Below, piece after piece: positions 2,843 to 18,559 of a DNA stretch of 18,691 bases. The notes under the pieces are model-generated. The model made no database searches. It worked only from the letters and a program-made list of their open reading frames with translations, and was not told where the DNA came from. This stretch comes from Gemmatimonadota bacterium (GTDB lineage: Bacteria > Latescibacterota > UBA2968 > UBA8231). Position 1 is the first letter of the stretch; every line of letters begins with the position of its first letter. Location of the stretch: positions 1 to 18,691 of the forward strand of contig PATE01000138.1 of assembly GCA_002712305.1 (NCBI GenBank), written 5' to 3'. Both the position numbers and the translations under genes were made by a program.

Positions 2843-2857
2843 TCCAACAGGACAGTG

Positions 2858-3529
2858 ATGAACGTGCATGAACTTTCTTCGAAGCATCTGACGGACTACG
2901 TGCAGGATGGATTCACACTCGTATCGGGGTTGATGGGTGATTCTATCGCAACCGCTGCAGAGTTGGCCATGTGGTCTTGCATGAAGGCTCGTCCTGACGA
3001 CCCCGATACCTGGCCCGATAGTTTTGCCGAGGGTGTCGACCATCCAGACATCATCGCTTGCTACACCGACGCGTTCCTGCAGGTTGCCGCTCAGCTGGGT
3101 GGCGAATCATCCGCTCGCTTCGAAGCGCCAGGCGGCGCGCTGGCGATCAACATCTTCCCAACAGAAGAACCCTGGCAACCACCCGGACCACACATCGATC
3201 ACGCGATCAAAGAACATGGCCACCGGACCTTTCCGCGCCCTTTCCGGGTGGCGACGATGACCTTTCTCGACGATGTCGAGTACCACTGTGGCGGCACCGC
3301 GGTCTGGCCCGGCTCACACCAGGCGATCGAACGACTGGCGCGCTCGGATGAGGAGCGATACGGATTCATGTGGACGCTAAATCAGGATCTGCACCGGGCC
3401 GAGGTCGGAGACCCCGTCATATTGACGCCGAGACGAGGAGACGTGCTCTTCTACGACGCCCTCTGTGCGCATGGTGGAAGTGCAAATACCGGTTCGCGGC
3501 CACGTCTGGCGCTGAACCACAAATGGTAG
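2858..3529 (+). CDS. Short PhyH-type Fe/2OG dioxygenase
   Basis: This 223-residue PhyH family protein is shorter than the usual 260-310 because the N-terminal helices are trimmed. It carries a complete iron site: H112-I-D114, distal H205 and 2-oxoglutarate-binding R216. The FLDDVEYHCGGTAVWPGSH segment (136-154) is the typical loop before the second half of the barrel. It should be a cytosolic, iron-dependent hydroxylase; the substrate is unknown. The frame also allows GTG at 2855, but AGGA at 2849-2852 sits five bases from the ATG at 2858 and only two from the GTG, so I chose the ATG. A promoter-like sequence lies at 2706-2734. The next oxygenase starts 11 bases after the stop, so the two are probably one operon. 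Confidence 0.85.
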   Translation: MNVHELSSKHLTDYVQDGFTLVSGLMGDSIATAAELAMWSCMKARPDDPDTWPDSFAEGVDHPDIIACYTDAFLQVAAQLGGESSARFEAPGGALAINIFPTEEPWQPPGPHIDHAIKEHGHRTFPRPFRVATMTFLDDVEYHCGGTAVWPGSHQAIERLARSDEERYGFMWTLNQDLHRAEVGDPVILTPRRGDVLFYDALCAHGGSANTGSRPRLALNHKW

Positions 3530-3540
3530 AATGAGTGATC

Positions 3541-4314
3541 ATGGGATTGCGTGAGGAATATGACGAGAAGGGTTACTGTGTCGCTCGCAGTGCCATCGAT
3601 GCGAGCCTCGCGGGGGAGATGGTGAATCACGTACACTGGCTCATGGAGCGTCACCCAGACACTCGCCCCGAACGTCTCGGACACTCCTTGCTGGTCGACG
3701 ATCCCTTCATGCATCGGCTGGTGACCGACGAACGCCTCGTGGACGTGGCCGAGCAATTCCTCGGCCCCAATGTGGCCATGTTTGCTGCACACTACATTGC
3801 AAAGAAGCCTCACAAGGGCCAGGCAGTGCAGTGGCATCAGGACGGATCCTACTGGCCGTTGGAACCCATGGAGGTGGCCACCCTCTGGGTCGCCGGCACC
3901 GACTCGGTCGTCGACAACGGTTGCATGCGTGTTCTGCCTGGAACCCAGAATGTCCGCCTGCGAAAGCAGAGCGAGATGGTGGAACTCGATCGCGAGAAGT
4001 TTGTCCTGGGGGTCGGCATCCATCCCGATGAGATCGACGACGAGGATGCCGTCGATCTCGAACTGATGGCAGGCGATGTGTCCATCCACAATCCGACGAT
4101 CATTCACGGCTCCAATGCGAATGCGTCAGATCGCTGGCGCGTGGGGCTGACCCTACGCTACATCCCTACATCCACTCATGTGACCAATCCGGATCACGAA
4201 AGCATTCTCTGCCGGGGTCATATCGATTCCAGCGTGGCCAATGCCTATGCCACCACACCCACATGGGTGCAAGGCGACCACATGCCCTTTCAGGGCGCCG
4301 AAGACTGGGCCTGA
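3541..4314 (+). CDS. PhyH-type Fe/2OG dioxygenase with canonical WHQDG motif
   Basis: This 257-residue protein is a classic bacterial PhyH-family member. EEYDEKGYCV opens the fold, WHQDG supplies iron ligands H99 and D101, NGCMRVLPGTQ (126-136) is the usual loop, and H189 plus R200 complete the iron and co-substrate site. Relatives hydroxylate alkyl, amino-acid or natural-product substrates; the sequence does not say which. The frame extends two codons further to GTG at 3535. I prefer the ATG at 3541, although neither start has a strong ribosome site, so translation may be coupled to the gene ending at 3529. The similar but non-identical neighbour suggests diverged paralogues rather than a recent tandem copy. 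It converges with the minus-strand lyase-like gene that ends at 4383. Confidence 0.88.
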   Translation: MGLREEYDEKGYCVARSAIDASLAGEMVNHVHWLMERHPDTRPERLGHSLLVDDPFMHRLVTDERLVDVAEQFLGPNVAMFAAHYIAKKPHKGQAVQWHQDGSYWPLEPMEVATLWVAGTDSVVDNGCMRVLPGTQNVRLRKQSEMVELDREKFVLGVGIHPDEIDDEDAVDLELMAGDVSIHNPTIIHGSNANASDRWRVGLTLRYIPTSTHVTNPDHESILCRGHIDSSVANAYATTPTWVQGDHMPFQGAEDWA

Positions 4315-13262: not shown

Positions 13263-13298
13263 CAGACTCGTCATGATCAACCAGCAAGGAGTCAGATG

Positions 13299-13801
13299 AT
13301 GAAGATCTGCAGACAGATTGCCTACCTTATCGTTGCCACCGGTTCGATGGCCCTGGCGGGGCCTGGCGAGAGCGGAGCGTTCCAGGAGCGCGTCGTCGTC
13401 GTCGACATTCTCACGTTCTTTGCCTCGGCGCAGAATATGGTCCCCGATTCATCGTCGATCGCGGCACCCTTCTACACGTCGATCAGTTGGACCTCATCAC
13501 GACGGTGCCGCTCATCGATTTCGGCCGCCTCCGTTCCGACCCGGGGCGCCAGGTGACCCTCGAGGGGGTCAACAAGTGCCAGTGTGGGCTGGCCGTAGCT
13601 GACCTGCCGCACTCCTGTAAGCTCGGCCATCTCCATCACCTGGAAGCTGACGATGGGAAGATCTATCACAACCTGCAGACGGAGCCAGGCAAGCAGGCCT
13701 TTCTCGGGCGAGTGGCCCACTTCCAACCCGCGGGTGTGACGGCTCTGCTCCTTCCTGGCCAGTTTCTATTGGTGCAGCAGTTGGACGTGAAGACGGAGTA
13801 G
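13299..13801 (+). pseudogene. Small secreted protein of unknown family, frameshifted near 13442
   Basis: I do not recognise the family. AAGGAG (13286-13291) lies seven bases before the ATG at 13299 (ATG at 13296 is also possible). The first residues KICRQ followed by IAYLIVATGSMALAG form a signal peptide, so the product would be exported. The first frame runs off into low-quality sequence and stops at 13556. A second plus-strand frame, continuous upstream to about 13400, encodes a sensible mature domain (RFIVDRGTLLHVDQL, KCQCGL, a His-rich KLGHLHHLE and a hydrophobic end) up to TAG at 13799-13801. Adding one C to the CCCC run at 13442-13445 joins the two frames into about 167 residues. This may be a real mutation, a sequencing error or programmed -1 slippage. 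The gene sits directly behind the ceramidase-like gene and may be cotranscribed. Confidence 0.6.
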
Positions 13802-13861
13802 GTCTGCCCGAGAACGGAGTACGTCATCACGTCGTTCAGTATCACGGCGTAGATCTGCCCG
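13793..13861. repeat. Imperfect 18-base direct repeat across a convergent junction
   Basis: Positions 13793-13810 and 13844-13861 match at 16 of 18 bases (ACGGmGTAGrTCTGCCCG, where m is A/C and r is A/G). A third partial copy, ACGGAGTA, is at 13814-13821. The copies overlap the stop codons of the two convergent genes. No terminator hairpin with a T-tract is visible in the gap between them. Confidence 0.6.
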
Positions 13862-15392
13862 CGGCGAGGCGGCGATGCACGCGCTTCCAACGACCCACCA
13901 TGTCGGGGCGCTGGATCACCGGTTTAAAGCCTAGATCCAGATAGACCTTCAGAGCAGCAAGCCGAAAGTCATCGGTGCTCAATGTGACCTCCGTATACCC
14001 CTTTGCCGTCAGGTAATTCAAAACCCCGAGGCAGACCGCCCGTCCCAGGCCCCTGCCGCTGTGGTCGGGATGGGCGGCAACGTAGTCGAGGGCACCTGTG
14101 GTCGGACTGTTGCGGGTGGCGAAGGTGGCGGCCACGACCTGCCCCTCATGAATGACGACACGGGAGCCATCCCGGCGTTCAGGTGCGGCCAGCCATTCGT
14201 CGATCCTGGCACGGGTCCAACCCGCGAAACCGGCAGCTCGCATCATCTTTGCCCAGCTGCCCTTGTCCTTGCTGCGAATGCTTCGAATCTCGTACGTCGC
14301 GGGTAACGACGCGGCAGGCAGGGCGCTGACCGTCTGCGCTCCAATGGACATTCTCAGTTGCATGGGTTCCTGCCCAAAAGAGACGGGTTCGTGTGGGCAA
14401 CCGCTGGACAAGGACCGAAACGCGGCGTCACACACCGACACGACGGTTGCACCATCCCGGGCGGTAATCGGGTTCTCCCGCTTACCCTCGAGCACATCGA
14501 GGAAGTCCACCACCGAACCGCCCCATCCATGCCCACCCACGGTACTCCCAGGTGATCGTTCGGCGAGTTGTCGCGTACGGGCCCCCCGTCGATAGATACG
14601 ACCATTCCACAGACTGCCCTCGGTCCCATAGACGGCCAGGGGACCTCCTCCCATGCCGTGCCCTGAACAACCACTGCTGACGAAGACCTTGCCCAAGACG
14701 CCGTTGGCGAACTTGAGGGACAGGATATAACAGTCGTCACTGGGAAATTCGGGAATACTCATCTTGCTGCTGTAGGCGTGCACCTCGGACACCGGCGCCC
14801 CCACGGCCCACAGCATCAGGTCGATGGGATGGCAGCCGCCGCCGAGCAGGATGTTCTGCGGATGGTCCGAGTCGATGCGCCAGGGCGTGTGCGATTCACC
14901 CTCCGGCGAGTAGTAGGACCACATGTCATGGATATAGTCCCCTTGAACGAAGAACACGTCTCCCACCTTTCCTTCCTTGGCCGCCAGCGCCGTCTCGCGC
15001 CACGGATGCATGTAGCGGAAGGTGTGATCCGTCATCACCTCCAGTCCCGTCTCTTCGGCTTTGTCGATGACGCGCTGGGCATCGTCGATCGTCGTGGCGA
15101 GCGGTTTTTCCACGAGTGCGTGGCATCCATGTTCGAGGGCTTGGAGGGTTTGCGCGGCATGGAGATGATCCGGACCGCCTACGACAACCACATCGGGGCG
15201 CGTCTGCTTCAGCAGGGCCTCGTAATCGTCGCCGACGACGGCCTCAGGAAGCGCAGCTTGGGCCCGCTCAAGGGCACGGGGTACGGGGTCGAAAAAACCC
15301 ACTGTTTCTCCGCGACCATCTGCGGCAGCGACCTGAGCTACGTGGAGGGACGCGCTGCCCGCTCCACAGACCAGCAATCGAAAGGCGGCCAT
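13842..15392 (-). CDS. Gfo/Idh/MocA-type oxidoreductase fused to a GNAT acetyltransferase
   Basis: This 516-residue protein has two domains. Residues 1 to about 340 are a Gfo/Idh/MocA NAD(P)-dependent dehydrogenase: Rossmann motif LLVCGAGSAS (6-15), the EKP signature E95-K96-P97, and GGGCHPIDL with catalytic-type H188 and D191. These enzymes oxidise or reduce a sugar or cyclitol hydroxyl. Residues about 367-510 are a GNAT fold: YVAAHPDHSGRGLGRAV contains the acetyl-CoA motif R447-x-x-G450-x-A452, followed by ALKVYLDLGFKPV. GNATs acetylate amines. Both halves are in one frame with no internal start that clearly separates them. The fusion suggests a redox step and an N-acetylation of the same or linked substrate, for example an amino-sugar; this is inference. 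It is cytoplasmic. GAGG lies nine bases before the ATG. It diverges from the aldo/keto reductase gene. Confidence 0.85.
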   Translation of the reverse strand: MAAFRLLVCGAGSASLHVAQVAAADGRGETVGFFDPVPRALERAQAALPEAVVGDDYEALLKQTRPDVVVVGGPDHLHAAQTLQALEHGCHALVEKPLATTIDDAQRVIDKAEETGLEVMTDHTFRYMHPWRETALAAKEGKVGDVFFVQGDYIHDMWSYYSPEGESHTPWRIDSDHPQNILLGGGCHPIDLMLWAVGAPVSEVHAYSSKMSIPEFPSDDCYILSLKFANGVLGKVFVSSGCSGHGMGGGPLAVYGTEGSLWNGRIYRRGARTRQLAERSPGSTVGGHGWGGSVVDFLDVLEGKRENPITARDGATVVSVCDAAFRSLSSGCPHEPVSFGQEPMQLRMSIGAQTVSALPAASLPATYEIRSIRSKDKGSWAKMMRAAGFAGWTRARIDEWLAAPERRDGSRVVIHEGQVVAATFATRNSPTTGALDYVAAHPDHSGRGLGRAVCLGVLNYLTAKGYTEVTLSTDDFRLAALKVYLDLGFKPVIQRPDMVGRWKRVHRRLAAGRSTP

Positions 15393-15613: not shown

Positions 15614-16525
15614 ATGAAAACGAGAGAACTCGGTCGCCAGGGACCGGAGGTCTCCGTCATCGGACTGGGGGCGTGGCCCATCGGCGGGGGGATGGGTGTC
15701 GTAGACGCGGCGGTGGCGATCTCTACAGTTCGTTCAGCCATCGATGCGGGCATCACACTACTGGACACGGCCCAGGCTTACCGCACGAGCGAATCCACGC
15801 TGGGCAGGGCCTTGGGCGATGGATATCGGGATCGGTGCTTTCTCGCCACCAAGGTCAGTTCTGATTACTCACCCACGGGGATCAGGACGGCCATGGACAA
15901 CAGCCTGCGCGCCCTTGGTGTTGACCACGTGGACCTCTATCAGGTTCACAGCTGGCGTGCAGATGTCTATCCCATCGAATCAACGATGGAGACGATGGCC
16001 CGACTGCAGGAGGAGGGGAAGACACGGTTCATCGGCGTGTCCAACTTCAACGCCGAACAGATGAGCCAGGCCTACGGCGTGGCACCCTTCCACTCGAGCC
16101 AGCCTCGCTACAACATGATCGACCGACACATCGAACCCACGGATCTACCATTCTGCGAACAGCGTGGAATCGGAAATCTCGTCCACAGTCCTCTCGCCAA
16201 AGGACTGCTCACGGGCAAGTATCGAGCAGATCACGTGTTTCCTGACGAGGACGAGAGATCCGGGTTCCCGCGTTTTCAAGGCAAACAGTTTGCGGCCTAC
16301 ATGCAGCTGGGTGACCGACTCCGAGAGGTGGCCCACGACGTGGGGTGCACGATGGTCCAGCTTGCGATCGCCTGGTGCCTCCGGCAACCAGCCGTCAACT
16401 GCGTTCTCGTCGGCGCGAAGAGTCCATCTCAGGTCGCTGACTATGTCCCCGCCGCCGACATCGAGTTGTCAGCCGACGAGTTGGCGCGCCTCGATCAGAT
16501 CCTCGCCGGTGCGCCCGTCGATTGA
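15614..16525 (+). CDS. Aldo/keto reductase
   Basis: The 303-residue NADPH-type aldo/keto reductase has the full catalytic tetrad: D51 and Y56 (DTAQAY), K80 (FLATK) and H112 (QVHSW). The IGVSNF and SPLAKGLLTGKY elements shape the cofactor site. It reduces aldehydes or ketones, or oxidises sugars, in the cytoplasm; the substrate is unknown. A GAGGGG ribosome site is placed just before the ATG. The stop overlaps the next gene's ATG (TGATG at 16523-16527), so the two are translationally coupled and probably act on the same carbohydrate. It is divergent from the dehydrogenase-acetyltransferase gene, a common arrangement for sugar loci. Confidence 0.93.
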   Translation: MKTRELGRQGPEVSVIGLGAWPIGGGMGVVDAAVAISTVRSAIDAGITLLDTAQAYRTSESTLGRALGDGYRDRCFLATKVSSDYSPTGIRTAMDNSLRALGVDHVDLYQVHSWRADVYPIESTMETMARLQEEGKTRFIGVSNFNAEQMSQAYGVAPFHSSQPRYNMIDRHIEPTDLPFCEQRGIGNLVHSPLAKGLLTGKYRADHVFPDEDERSGFPRFQGKQFAAYMQLGDRLREVAHDVGCTMVQLAIAWCLRQPAVNCVLVGAKSPSQVADYVPAADIELSADELARLDQILAGAPVD

Positions 16526-17580
16526 TGGCGAAACGATCTGCTCAAACCCCTCTCCGCTGGCTTCGAGAGGCGGGCCCGCGCGTGGCCGGTTCGCGCGATC
16601 TGGATCGTTCCAAAGTGCAGGCACCGGGCATCGTCCGCGATCCGTCAGGTGGATACCGGCTCTTCTACACGGCGATCGGTTCCGACAGACCCTTCGAAGC
16701 CTGCCAGGGAAGTATCTTCAGCGCGTTTTCCAACGATGGACTGAACTTTGTTCCCGACGATGGGATTCGCGTGGCGCCCGATCCGGCGGTCCCAGACAGG
16801 TCTCTTCGCGTCCTCGCTCCCTCCGTCACACAGGTCGAAGACCGTCTGTGGCGAATGTATTTCGAGTCGCGAGGTCCGGCGGACCGGCCAACCCTCATCG
16901 GCAGTGCGCGGTCGACCGACCTGCTCGAATGGGAGGTGGAAGAGGGGGCACGTCTGGCGAGTGCCGAGGGTGTGGGTGGGCCTCGGTACGTGAGCCTCGG
17001 CGATGGGCGAGGTCGACTCTACTACTCTGAGTCGCACTTTGATGAGGGCGGACTGGCTGATGGGGAACGAATGTCTCAGAGCATCATCAGTGCCGTCACG
17101 ACCGATGGTCTGCACTTCGAACGCGAATCGGGTGATCGGATGCAGGATCGGTATTCGGAGCAGGAAGACGTGGGGATCACCGCGGCCGATGTCATGGTTC
17201 CAGCCAACGAGACCGAGCGTTGGTGGATGCTCTATTCCGCCTGGCAGGACGTACCCGCTGGCACGCAGAAACCACTTCACCCGAGCAACGACCCTCAGGC
17301 TGTTGATCGTGGCACAAGTGCCGATTTCGCCGTGGCGTCTATCGCCAGTGACATGGCCGGCTATCGATCGCGCATCTTCGCGGCCTCATCGGACGATGGG
17401 CTCTCGTGGACGCGCGAGGGTTGTGTCATCGAGGGTGAAGGGCATGAGCAGGCAGGAATCGACGCAGTCCATGCAGAGGATATGAGTGTGATCCGGCTCG
17501 ACGACGGGGGATACCGGATGTACTACGCGGCGTGCGATCGGGCAGGAAACTGGTGCATCGCGAGTGCGAAAACAGGATGA
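16525..17580 (+). CDS. Five-bladed beta-propeller glycoside hydrolase-like protein (GH43/32/130-like)
   Basis: This 351-residue protein has five propeller blades, each marked by an aromatic strand: YRLFYTA (44-50), WRMYFES (109-115), RLYYSES (164-170), WWMLYSAW (233-240) and YRMYYAA (330-336). SNDGLNF, STDLLEW, TTDGLHF and SSDDGLSW turns lie between. This is the fold of arabinanases, fructosidases and GH130 phosphorylases. I cannot identify the catalytic acids securely, and many relatives are uncharacterised, so the activity (hydrolysis, phosphorolysis or sugar binding) is open. There is no signal peptide. TTG at 16522 is in frame, but the ATG at 16525, which overlaps the aldo/keto reductase stop, is the better start. 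It converges with the oxygenase ending at 17670. Confidence 0.78.
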   Translation: MAKRSAQTPLRWLREAGPRVAGSRDLDRSKVQAPGIVRDPSGGYRLFYTAIGSDRPFEACQGSIFSAFSNDGLNFVPDDGIRVAPDPAVPDRSLRVLAPSVTQVEDRLWRMYFESRGPADRPTLIGSARSTDLLEWEVEEGARLASAEGVGGPRYVSLGDGRGRLYYSESHFDEGGLADGERMSQSIISAVTTDGLHFERESGDRMQDRYSEQEDVGITAADVMVPANETERWWMLYSAWQDVPAGTQKPLHPSNDPQAVDRGTSADFAVASIASDMAGYRSRIFAASSDDGLSWTREGCVIEGEGHEQAGIDAVHAEDMSVIRLDDGGYRMYYAACDRAGNWCIASAKTG

Positions 17581-17669: not shown

Positions 17670-18404
17670 TCAAGCTCCCACGGTTCTCGGTCGATGCTGT
17701 TGAGCACCGAGCAGCTGCTGCAGGAGCTCCGGCGGGTCCTCGACGTCGGACAGCTGAGCACCCATGTCTTCTTGAGGCAGGAACCAGGGCATGATGTACA
17801 TGCCTAGAAGACACGAACGGGGGTTCTTCGACCGATTCGGTCGAGCCGTATGCCACCAGGCGCCATCGGCAAACACCACCGAACCAGCCGTCCCTGTCAG
17901 AACCTTGCCGTCGTCACGCCATTGGTCTGTTGGCTGTTCCGGGGGATGTGCCTTCTTGTGTGAGCCCGGCACGACCCCGGTGGCACCATTCTCGTCGGTA
18001 AAGTCGTCGAGCATCCAGACTGTCTGGCCCGCCATCAGACCCTCGGGCCAGGGGGCTTGTTTCGACCAATAGGGATAGTCCACGTGCCAGCCGATCGATT
18101 CGTGACCCGGAAACACCGTATTGGCCGACCAGGACGAGCAGATGATGTCGGCGCCGAGCAACTGCTGCCATACATCGACGACAAACTGGTTGCACAACAG
18201 CTCTATGAACACCGGATGTTTGTTCACGAGCCGGCCGACGCGCTGAGATCCAGTGGCAGAGGTATCAGTTGTGGCCTCTTCTGCCAGCAGGCGGTTCAGC
18301 ACTTGGCGAGCCTGATCGATCGTCTGCTTGTCGATCAGATCAGGCACGACGCAGAATCCTTGTGTAGCGAGTTGCTGCTGAATGGTCTCTACACGGACGT
18401 CCAC
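17670..18404 (-). CDS. PhyH-type Fe/2OG dioxygenase
   Basis: The 244-residue protein has a complete PhyH iron site: WHVDYPYW with H107 and D109, distal H185 (WWHTARPN) and R196. The FTDENGATGVVPGSHK loop (135-150) matches family members close to ectoine-hydroxylase-like and natural-product oxygenases; the substrate is unknown. The open frame extends 47 codons further to a TTG at 18545, but that extension is rich in Arg, Ala and Glu with no domain. I chose the GTG at 18404, which has AGGAG (18414-18418) nine bases upstream and leads directly into the first helix, ETIQQQLATQGFCV. The start falls in the divergent gap with the 18560 ORF. It is a fifth oxygenase of the window, more than 13 kb from the others. 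Confidence 0.84.
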   Translation of the reverse strand: MDVRVETIQQQLATQGFCVVPDLIDKQTIDQARQVLNRLLAEEATTDTSATGSQRVGRLVNKHPVFIELLCNQFVVDVWQQLLGADIICSSWSANTVFPGHESIGWHVDYPYWSKQAPWPEGLMAGQTVWMLDDFTDENGATGVVPGSHKKAHPPEQPTDQWRDDGKVLTGTAGSVVFADGAWWHTARPNRSKNPRSCLLGMYIMPWFLPQEDMGAQLSDVEDPPELLQQLLGAQQHRPRTVGA

Positions 18405-18474
18405 TGGCGTTCTCTCCTGGCTGCGAGCGGCGGCTTGCGGCTCCGCGTCGCTCAATTCGATCGGCCTGGCCGAT

Positions 18475-18503
18475 TTGCCCCTTCGGGCCCGGGTTGATTT
18501 AAT
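18475..18503 (+). promoter_or_regulatory. Sigma70-type promoter for the 18560 ORF
   Basis: TTGCCC (18475-18480) and TTTAAT (18498-18503) are 17 bases apart, with CGGGCCCG palindromic sequence in the spacer. The predicted start is near 18510, 50 bases before the ATG at 18560. It lies upstream of the chosen GTG of the minus-strand oxygenase, which supports that start. Confidence 0.45.
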
Positions 18504-18559
18504 GTCGTGAGTTTTTCCATCGTCGCTGAAACCGAACCAATACAACGCAAGCTGAGAGT

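Follow-up and report, generated by a model that had tools for sequence, protein, structure and literature searches.

The question raised by this locus is whether a single open reading frame that runs through a Gfo/Idh/MocA dehydrogenase and a GNAT acetyltransferase encodes a genuine protein of two enzymes, and which reactions its two halves would catalyze. A sequence-only reading of the window, i.e., of the whole 18,691-nucleotide contig, did not recognize the architecture as a described one and predicted that redox chemistry and acetyl transfer are coupled on one substrate, possibly an amino sugar. The features of the gene are as follows.

13842..15392, minus strand: Gfo/Idh/MocA-GNAT fusion gene (product P0001), 516 aa from ATG to stop; open frame, Pfam, AlphaFold2
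14376..15392, minus strand: Gfo/Idh/MocA dehydrogenase half, residues 1-339; Pfam, folds of NAD enzymes, conservation, point at which stand-alone relatives terminate
14364..14375, minus strand: four-codon linker GGG CAG GAA CCC (G340-P343); position of the stop codon in stand-alone relatives
14368..14371, minus strand: AGGA, Shine-Dalgarno-like, 4 nt 5' of the internal ATG
14361..14363, minus strand: internal ATG (M344), first codon of MQLRM...; the stand-alone Poribacteria GNAT L122:2251 begins identically
13845..14363, minus strand: GNAT acetyltransferase half, residues 344-516, of the type of the MshD C-terminal domain; Pfam, fold, profile, conservation

P0001 consists of a complete dehydrogenase and a complete GNAT domain with only four residues between them, in one frame as the sequence-only reading had stated. 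Both halves passed the Pfam cut-offs in the domain searches that this reading had proposed as a check. GFO_IDH_MocA (PF01408) matched residues 4-123 with 78.9 bits (cut-off 24), GFO_IDH_MocA_C (PF02894) matched residues 139-331 with 58.6 bits (cut-off 22.9) and Acetyltransf_1 (PF00583) matched residues 389-489 with 39.3 bits (cut-off 20.7). In addition, PF22725 matched the dehydrogenase half above its cut-off with 66.2 bits. AlphaFold2 yielded a confident two-domain model of full-length P0001 (mean pLDDT 89.5, pTM 0.78); for the GNAT half alone, the values were 94.3 and 0.89, respectively. The product of 13842-15392 is best read as a true two-enzyme protein.

With its Rossmann and alpha/beta C-terminal domains, the first half is a member of the Gfo/Idh/MocA superfamily. 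The EKP motif read at residues 95-97 was found as E95-K96-P97, and K96 and H188 are the expected lysine and catalytic histidine. K96, Y153, H188 and D191 were invariant in 73/73 rows of the alignment of this half. At 20-23% identity, its fold matched those of 1,5-anhydrofructose reductase, WlbA and dihydrodiol phthalate dehydrogenase (matched structures 2glx and 3q2k). No PDB sequence matched better than that of WlbA, which ranked second among the fold matches. Similar to P0001, inositol 2-dehydrogenase (IolG) and other Gfo/Idh/MocA enzymes possess these domains and the catalytic Lys/His; different from P0001, they lack a GNAT domain. P0001 also does not qualify as an IolG: TIGR04380 gave 80 bits, whereas the equivalog cut-off of this model is 355. 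Both halves were far below the NCBIfam cut-offs, and the closest known relatives are too distant to fix the substrate.

The second half is a member of the GNAT superfamily, with the Acetyltransf_1 domain, the Q/RxxGxG/A acetyl-CoA loop and a GNAT fold (Z up to 18.6). The RxxGxA motif noticed at residues 447-452 is this acetyl-CoA loop (R447-G-L-G-R-A452), and T473 and Y484 were invariant in 57/57 rows of the GNAT alignment. The closest folds were those of MAB_4324 (Z 18.6), MshD (18.3) and the Sphaerobacter protein 3tt2 (16.6), and 39 of 46 family members matched the MshD model. P0001 itself does not qualify as a mycothiol synthase (MshD): it reached 24.8 bits for TIGR03448, for which the cut-off is 163.1. 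From its first strand (QLRM) onward, the GNAT half aligns to the C-terminal domain of tandem-GNAT enzymes. These enzymes have two GNAT domains, whereas P0001 has one, and its dehydrogenase occupies the place of their N-terminal GNAT domain.

The same fusion, which the sequence-only reading had suggested looking for elsewhere, was found in four Chloroflexota genomes (G335, G162, G582, and G557), each with an open frame that encodes both domains in the order of P0001. The fusions of the sister genomes G335 and G162 were 41% identical to P0001 over residues 4-514 and had no stops. G582 and G557, which are the sole genomes of their order in the set examined, carried a more distant version with identities of 31-35%, also without stops. 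Pfam confirmed both domains at the fusion loci L101, L138, and L139. Between the G335 and G162 fusions, dN/dS was 0.14 in the dehydrogenase portion and 0.08 in the GNAT portion. Thus, both halves are maintained, and in this one sister pair of fusions both are under purifying selection. No fusion was found in the other genomes among the 64 searched from the window's own phylum, in the 84 genomes searched from the phylum of the Poribacteria locus or in the plasmid search. Nor was a described Gfo/Idh-GNAT fusion found in the open-access literature.

In the dehydrogenase tree, the five fusions fell into three lineages. A single clade for all five was rejected by the dehydrogenase half (AU test, p 5e-88) and also by the GNAT half (p 0.0136). 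A common origin of P0001 and the G335/G162 fusions was not firmly rejected (p 0.051), and in the GNAT tree P0001, the G335 fusion and a stand-alone GNAT of G002 clustered together with moderate support. Since the dehydrogenase tree rejects one clade for the five fusions, the join arose at least twice, and probably three times. We consider it very likely that the architecture is a real and repeatedly evolved protein. Its parts are ordinary enzyme folds, and the architecture is probably meaningful because it evolved independently.

The history of the join in the window's genome can be read in part from its relatives. At more than 30 loci, the dehydrogenase half has stand-alone relatives with 55-65% identity; the titles of these records name Latescibacterota, Caldilineaceae, Gemmatimonadetes, Chloroflexota, and Poribacteria. 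Most of those read end with a C-terminal phenylalanine followed by a stop. At the same point P0001 continues as V-S-F-G-Q-E-P-M-Q-L-R-M, of which MQLRM is the natural start of the Poribacteria GNAT. The AGGA within the linker is possibly a relic of the ribosome site of a separate GNAT gene. Because this Shine-Dalgarno-like site and the ATG are retained ahead of the GNAT half, the fusion looks recent, as judged from the sequence. The simplest history would be the loss of a stop between two neighboring genes.

Separate adjacent genes for the two domains, also suggested by the earlier reading as a thing to look for, do occur in relatives: Gfo/Idh and GNAT genes lie side by side in Latescibacterota and Poribacteria. 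The window's genome and a genus-mate each have another Gfo/Idh gene that shares ATGA with an overlapping GNAT gene, and in G015 the overlap is GTGA. One genus of the class contributes eight genomes in which a Gfo/Idh gene is followed by a stop and then by a GNAT gene in the same frame, with a spacing of the stop plus about one codon where inspected (G032, G025 and others). In Poribacteria G493, Gfo, GNAT, and Gfo genes are consecutive. In Caldilineaceae, the dehydrogenase orthologue and a GNAT gene were in one cluster at 14 of 15 loci. The one such locus examined in full (L103) also contained a sugar-type ABC transporter, two PhyH genes, and an esterase-like hydrolase gene. The counts do not support a wider link between this GNAT group and Gfo/Idh genes: in 25 genomes of the family, a Gfo/Idh gene was within 1.5 kb of the GNAT relatives at 4 of 27 loci, which is not clearly above the expectation from gene density.

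Several other observations were made on these gene families. Three consecutive GNAT genes are found in the Caldilineaceae sugar-transport cluster (L103:12073-13972), two from the GNAT group of the fusion and one from another branch. In G015, an open reading frame with two GNAT stretches (L056:2355-3278) lies beside a Gfo/Idh gene and is possibly an intermediate between tandem GNATs and single-GNAT pairs. The whole genome G000 (4.8 Mb) yielded 78 matches to P0001, nearly all of them to the dehydrogenase half; thus, the Gfo/Idh/MocA genes are greatly expanded in this genome.

The claim that the fusion lies beside sugar genes on the opposite strand proved only partly right. The divergent neighbors in the window are an aldo/keto reductase gene (15614-16525) and a gene with a GH130-like match below the cut-off (16522-17580). 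The 580 bp that separate the fusion gene from the ceramidase-like gene (13263-13841) contained only short open reading frames and no Pfam match. Elsewhere in the 18.7 kb contig there are four genes for PhyH-type dioxygenases (793-1725, 2855-3529, 3535-4314, and 17670-18545), a family that also flanks the orthologue of the fusion in Caldilineaceae. The product of 1746-2606 on the minus strand matched the WelO5 halogenase family (78.4 bits, cut-off 27), but its HxD motif is of the hydroxylase type (HYD), which makes hydroxylation a likelier function than halogenation.

The neighborhood in G582 is the richest. Its gene order is solute-binding protein and permease genes, Gfo/Idh, NagA, TIM-barrel isomerase, fusion, DegT aminotransferase, amidohydrolase, and Nudix; NagA, two genes from the fusion, scored 252 bits against a cut-off of 225.65. 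L104 is another locus with a DegT gene, here 1.4 kb past the dehydrogenase orthologue. The suggested amino-sugar substrate is thus favored, indirectly, by the sugar isomerase, aminotransferase and NagA genes of the G582 operon, whereas the neighbors in the window lend it no support.

The chemistry suggests that another enzyme carries out an amination between redox and acetyl transfer. A stop codon would have been lost between the gene of a Gfo/Idh/MocA sugar or cyclitol dehydrogenase and a downstream GNAT gene, and the same pairing has been fused independently in other lineages. With substrate, direction, step order, and channelling as we infer them, the dehydrogenase half would act on a sugar or cyclitol with NAD(P), K96, and H188, turning a secondary alcohol into a ketone or the reverse. 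An aminotransferase of the DegT/DnrJ type, the product of another gene, would then convert the ketone to an amine, and the GNAT half would N-acetylate this amine with acetyl-CoA. The two halves of the fusion would thereby bracket the aminotransferase step. Since no aminotransferase gene was found in the window or beside the G162 and G335 fusions, this scheme depends on G582 and a second, weaker neighborhood. As a whole, we regard this mechanism as plausible, although somewhat short of probable.

The alternatives concern either the join or the chemistry. The join in the window could be an assembly error in this genome alone, in which a wrong consensus base or a wrong join deleted a stop and the organism has two adjacent genes. 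The sequence-only reading had seen the fusion as endangered if it occurred only in this assembly and if a stop was missing or a join was chimeric near 14290-14370, and the junction (14375-14364) does sit at the upper edge of that interval. The linker lies exactly at the stop of the relatives, and its second codon, CAG, is a single base away from TAG, so a consensus-base error is possible in this MAG. Moreover, the gene is single-copy in one draft MAG and the fusion is absent from the other genomes examined in the phylum. However, the same partners have been joined independently in other genomes, and GC3 is even over the join (0.70 and 0.72). The Chloroflexota fusions rule out, as a general explanation, an artefact confined to this MAG, and even for this genome we regard it as quite improbable. 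Alternatively, the stop could have been lost recently in the organism itself with nearly neutral effect. The two halves would then be separate enzymes with no shared substrate, and free GNAT would also be made from the retained ribosome site and ATG. The persistence of AGGA and ATG at the junction, the position of P0001 nested among stand-alone orthologues in the dehydrogenase tree and the usual distance of this GNAT family from Gfo/Idh genes would all fit such an event. Against it, the same partners were fused at least twice and the Chloroflexota pair is under purifying selection, which argues for a functional link; we regard a neutral join as unlikely.

If the two halves do share a pathway, its direction could be catabolic: an imported amino sugar would be N-acetylated by the GNAT half, then oxidized, and later isomerized and deacetylated by NagA, with no aminotransferase involved. 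ABC importer genes in the Caldilineaceae cluster and the G582 operon, the NagA and sugar isomerase genes of G582 and the presence of catabolic sugar and inositol dehydrogenases in the dehydrogenase family are all consistent with this order. The DegT aminotransferase gene directly downstream of the G582 fusion, however, encodes what is as a rule a biosynthetic sugar aminotransferase, and we consider the catabolic order rather unlikely. That the GNAT half is instead a regulator acetylating protein lysines, e.g., on the dehydrogenase itself, appears extremely unlikely. The protein acetyltransferases RimI and NatC were among its weaker profile matches, but the best fold and profile matches were to tandem GNATs such as MshD, a small-molecule enzyme, and the operon context is that of small-molecule metabolism.

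We return to the bracketing of an amination by dehydrogenase and GNAT. The repeated fusion of the same two enzyme families is strong evidence for one shared pathway, and the fusion ties the MshD-type GNAT group and some of the many Gfo/Idh genes to a step of that pathway. The same order of reactions is known from the Wbp pathway, in which a dehydrogenase, an aminotransferase, and an acetyltransferase act in turn, WlbA being the sugar-nucleotide 3-dehydrogenase (PMC10622841). WbpB/WlbA, WbpE, and WbpD/WlbB, i.e., a Gfo/Idh-type 3-dehydrogenase of UDP-GlcNAcA, an aminotransferase, and an N-acetyltransferase, work sequentially on one sugar. Of the solved structures, that of WlbA is one of the closest to the dehydrogenase half, yet it shares only the 20-23% identity given above, and the Wbp enzymes are separate proteins, different from the fused halves of P0001. 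The acetyltransferase WbpD/WlbB is a left-handed beta-helix protein and not a GNAT.

ArnA provides the closest parallel in design. Its folds are an SDR-type dehydrogenase and a formyltransferase, and its partner ArnB is a DegT-type aminotransferase. ArnA is a fusion of the dehydrogenase and the formyltransferase, and ArnB acts between the two steps (PMC12650200). Similar to ArnA, P0001 would join a sugar dehydrogenase to an N-acyl transferase with an aminotransferase step in between, and in G582 the aminotransferase gene is adjacent. The likeness is one of logic only: Pfam found neither a formyltransferase nor an SDR domain in P0001, its folds are Gfo/Idh/MocA and GNAT, and the domain order differs. 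As a tentative possibility, we suggest that the fusion is a repeatedly evolved analogue of ArnA built from unrelated folds, in which a Gfo/Idh dehydrogenase and an MshD-type GNAT would act around an amination to make or process an N-acetylated amino sugar or aminocyclitol, so far undescribed, in uncultured bacteria of the Latescibacterota and Chloroflexota. It would be a second instance of the ArnA design, without structural relation to the first.
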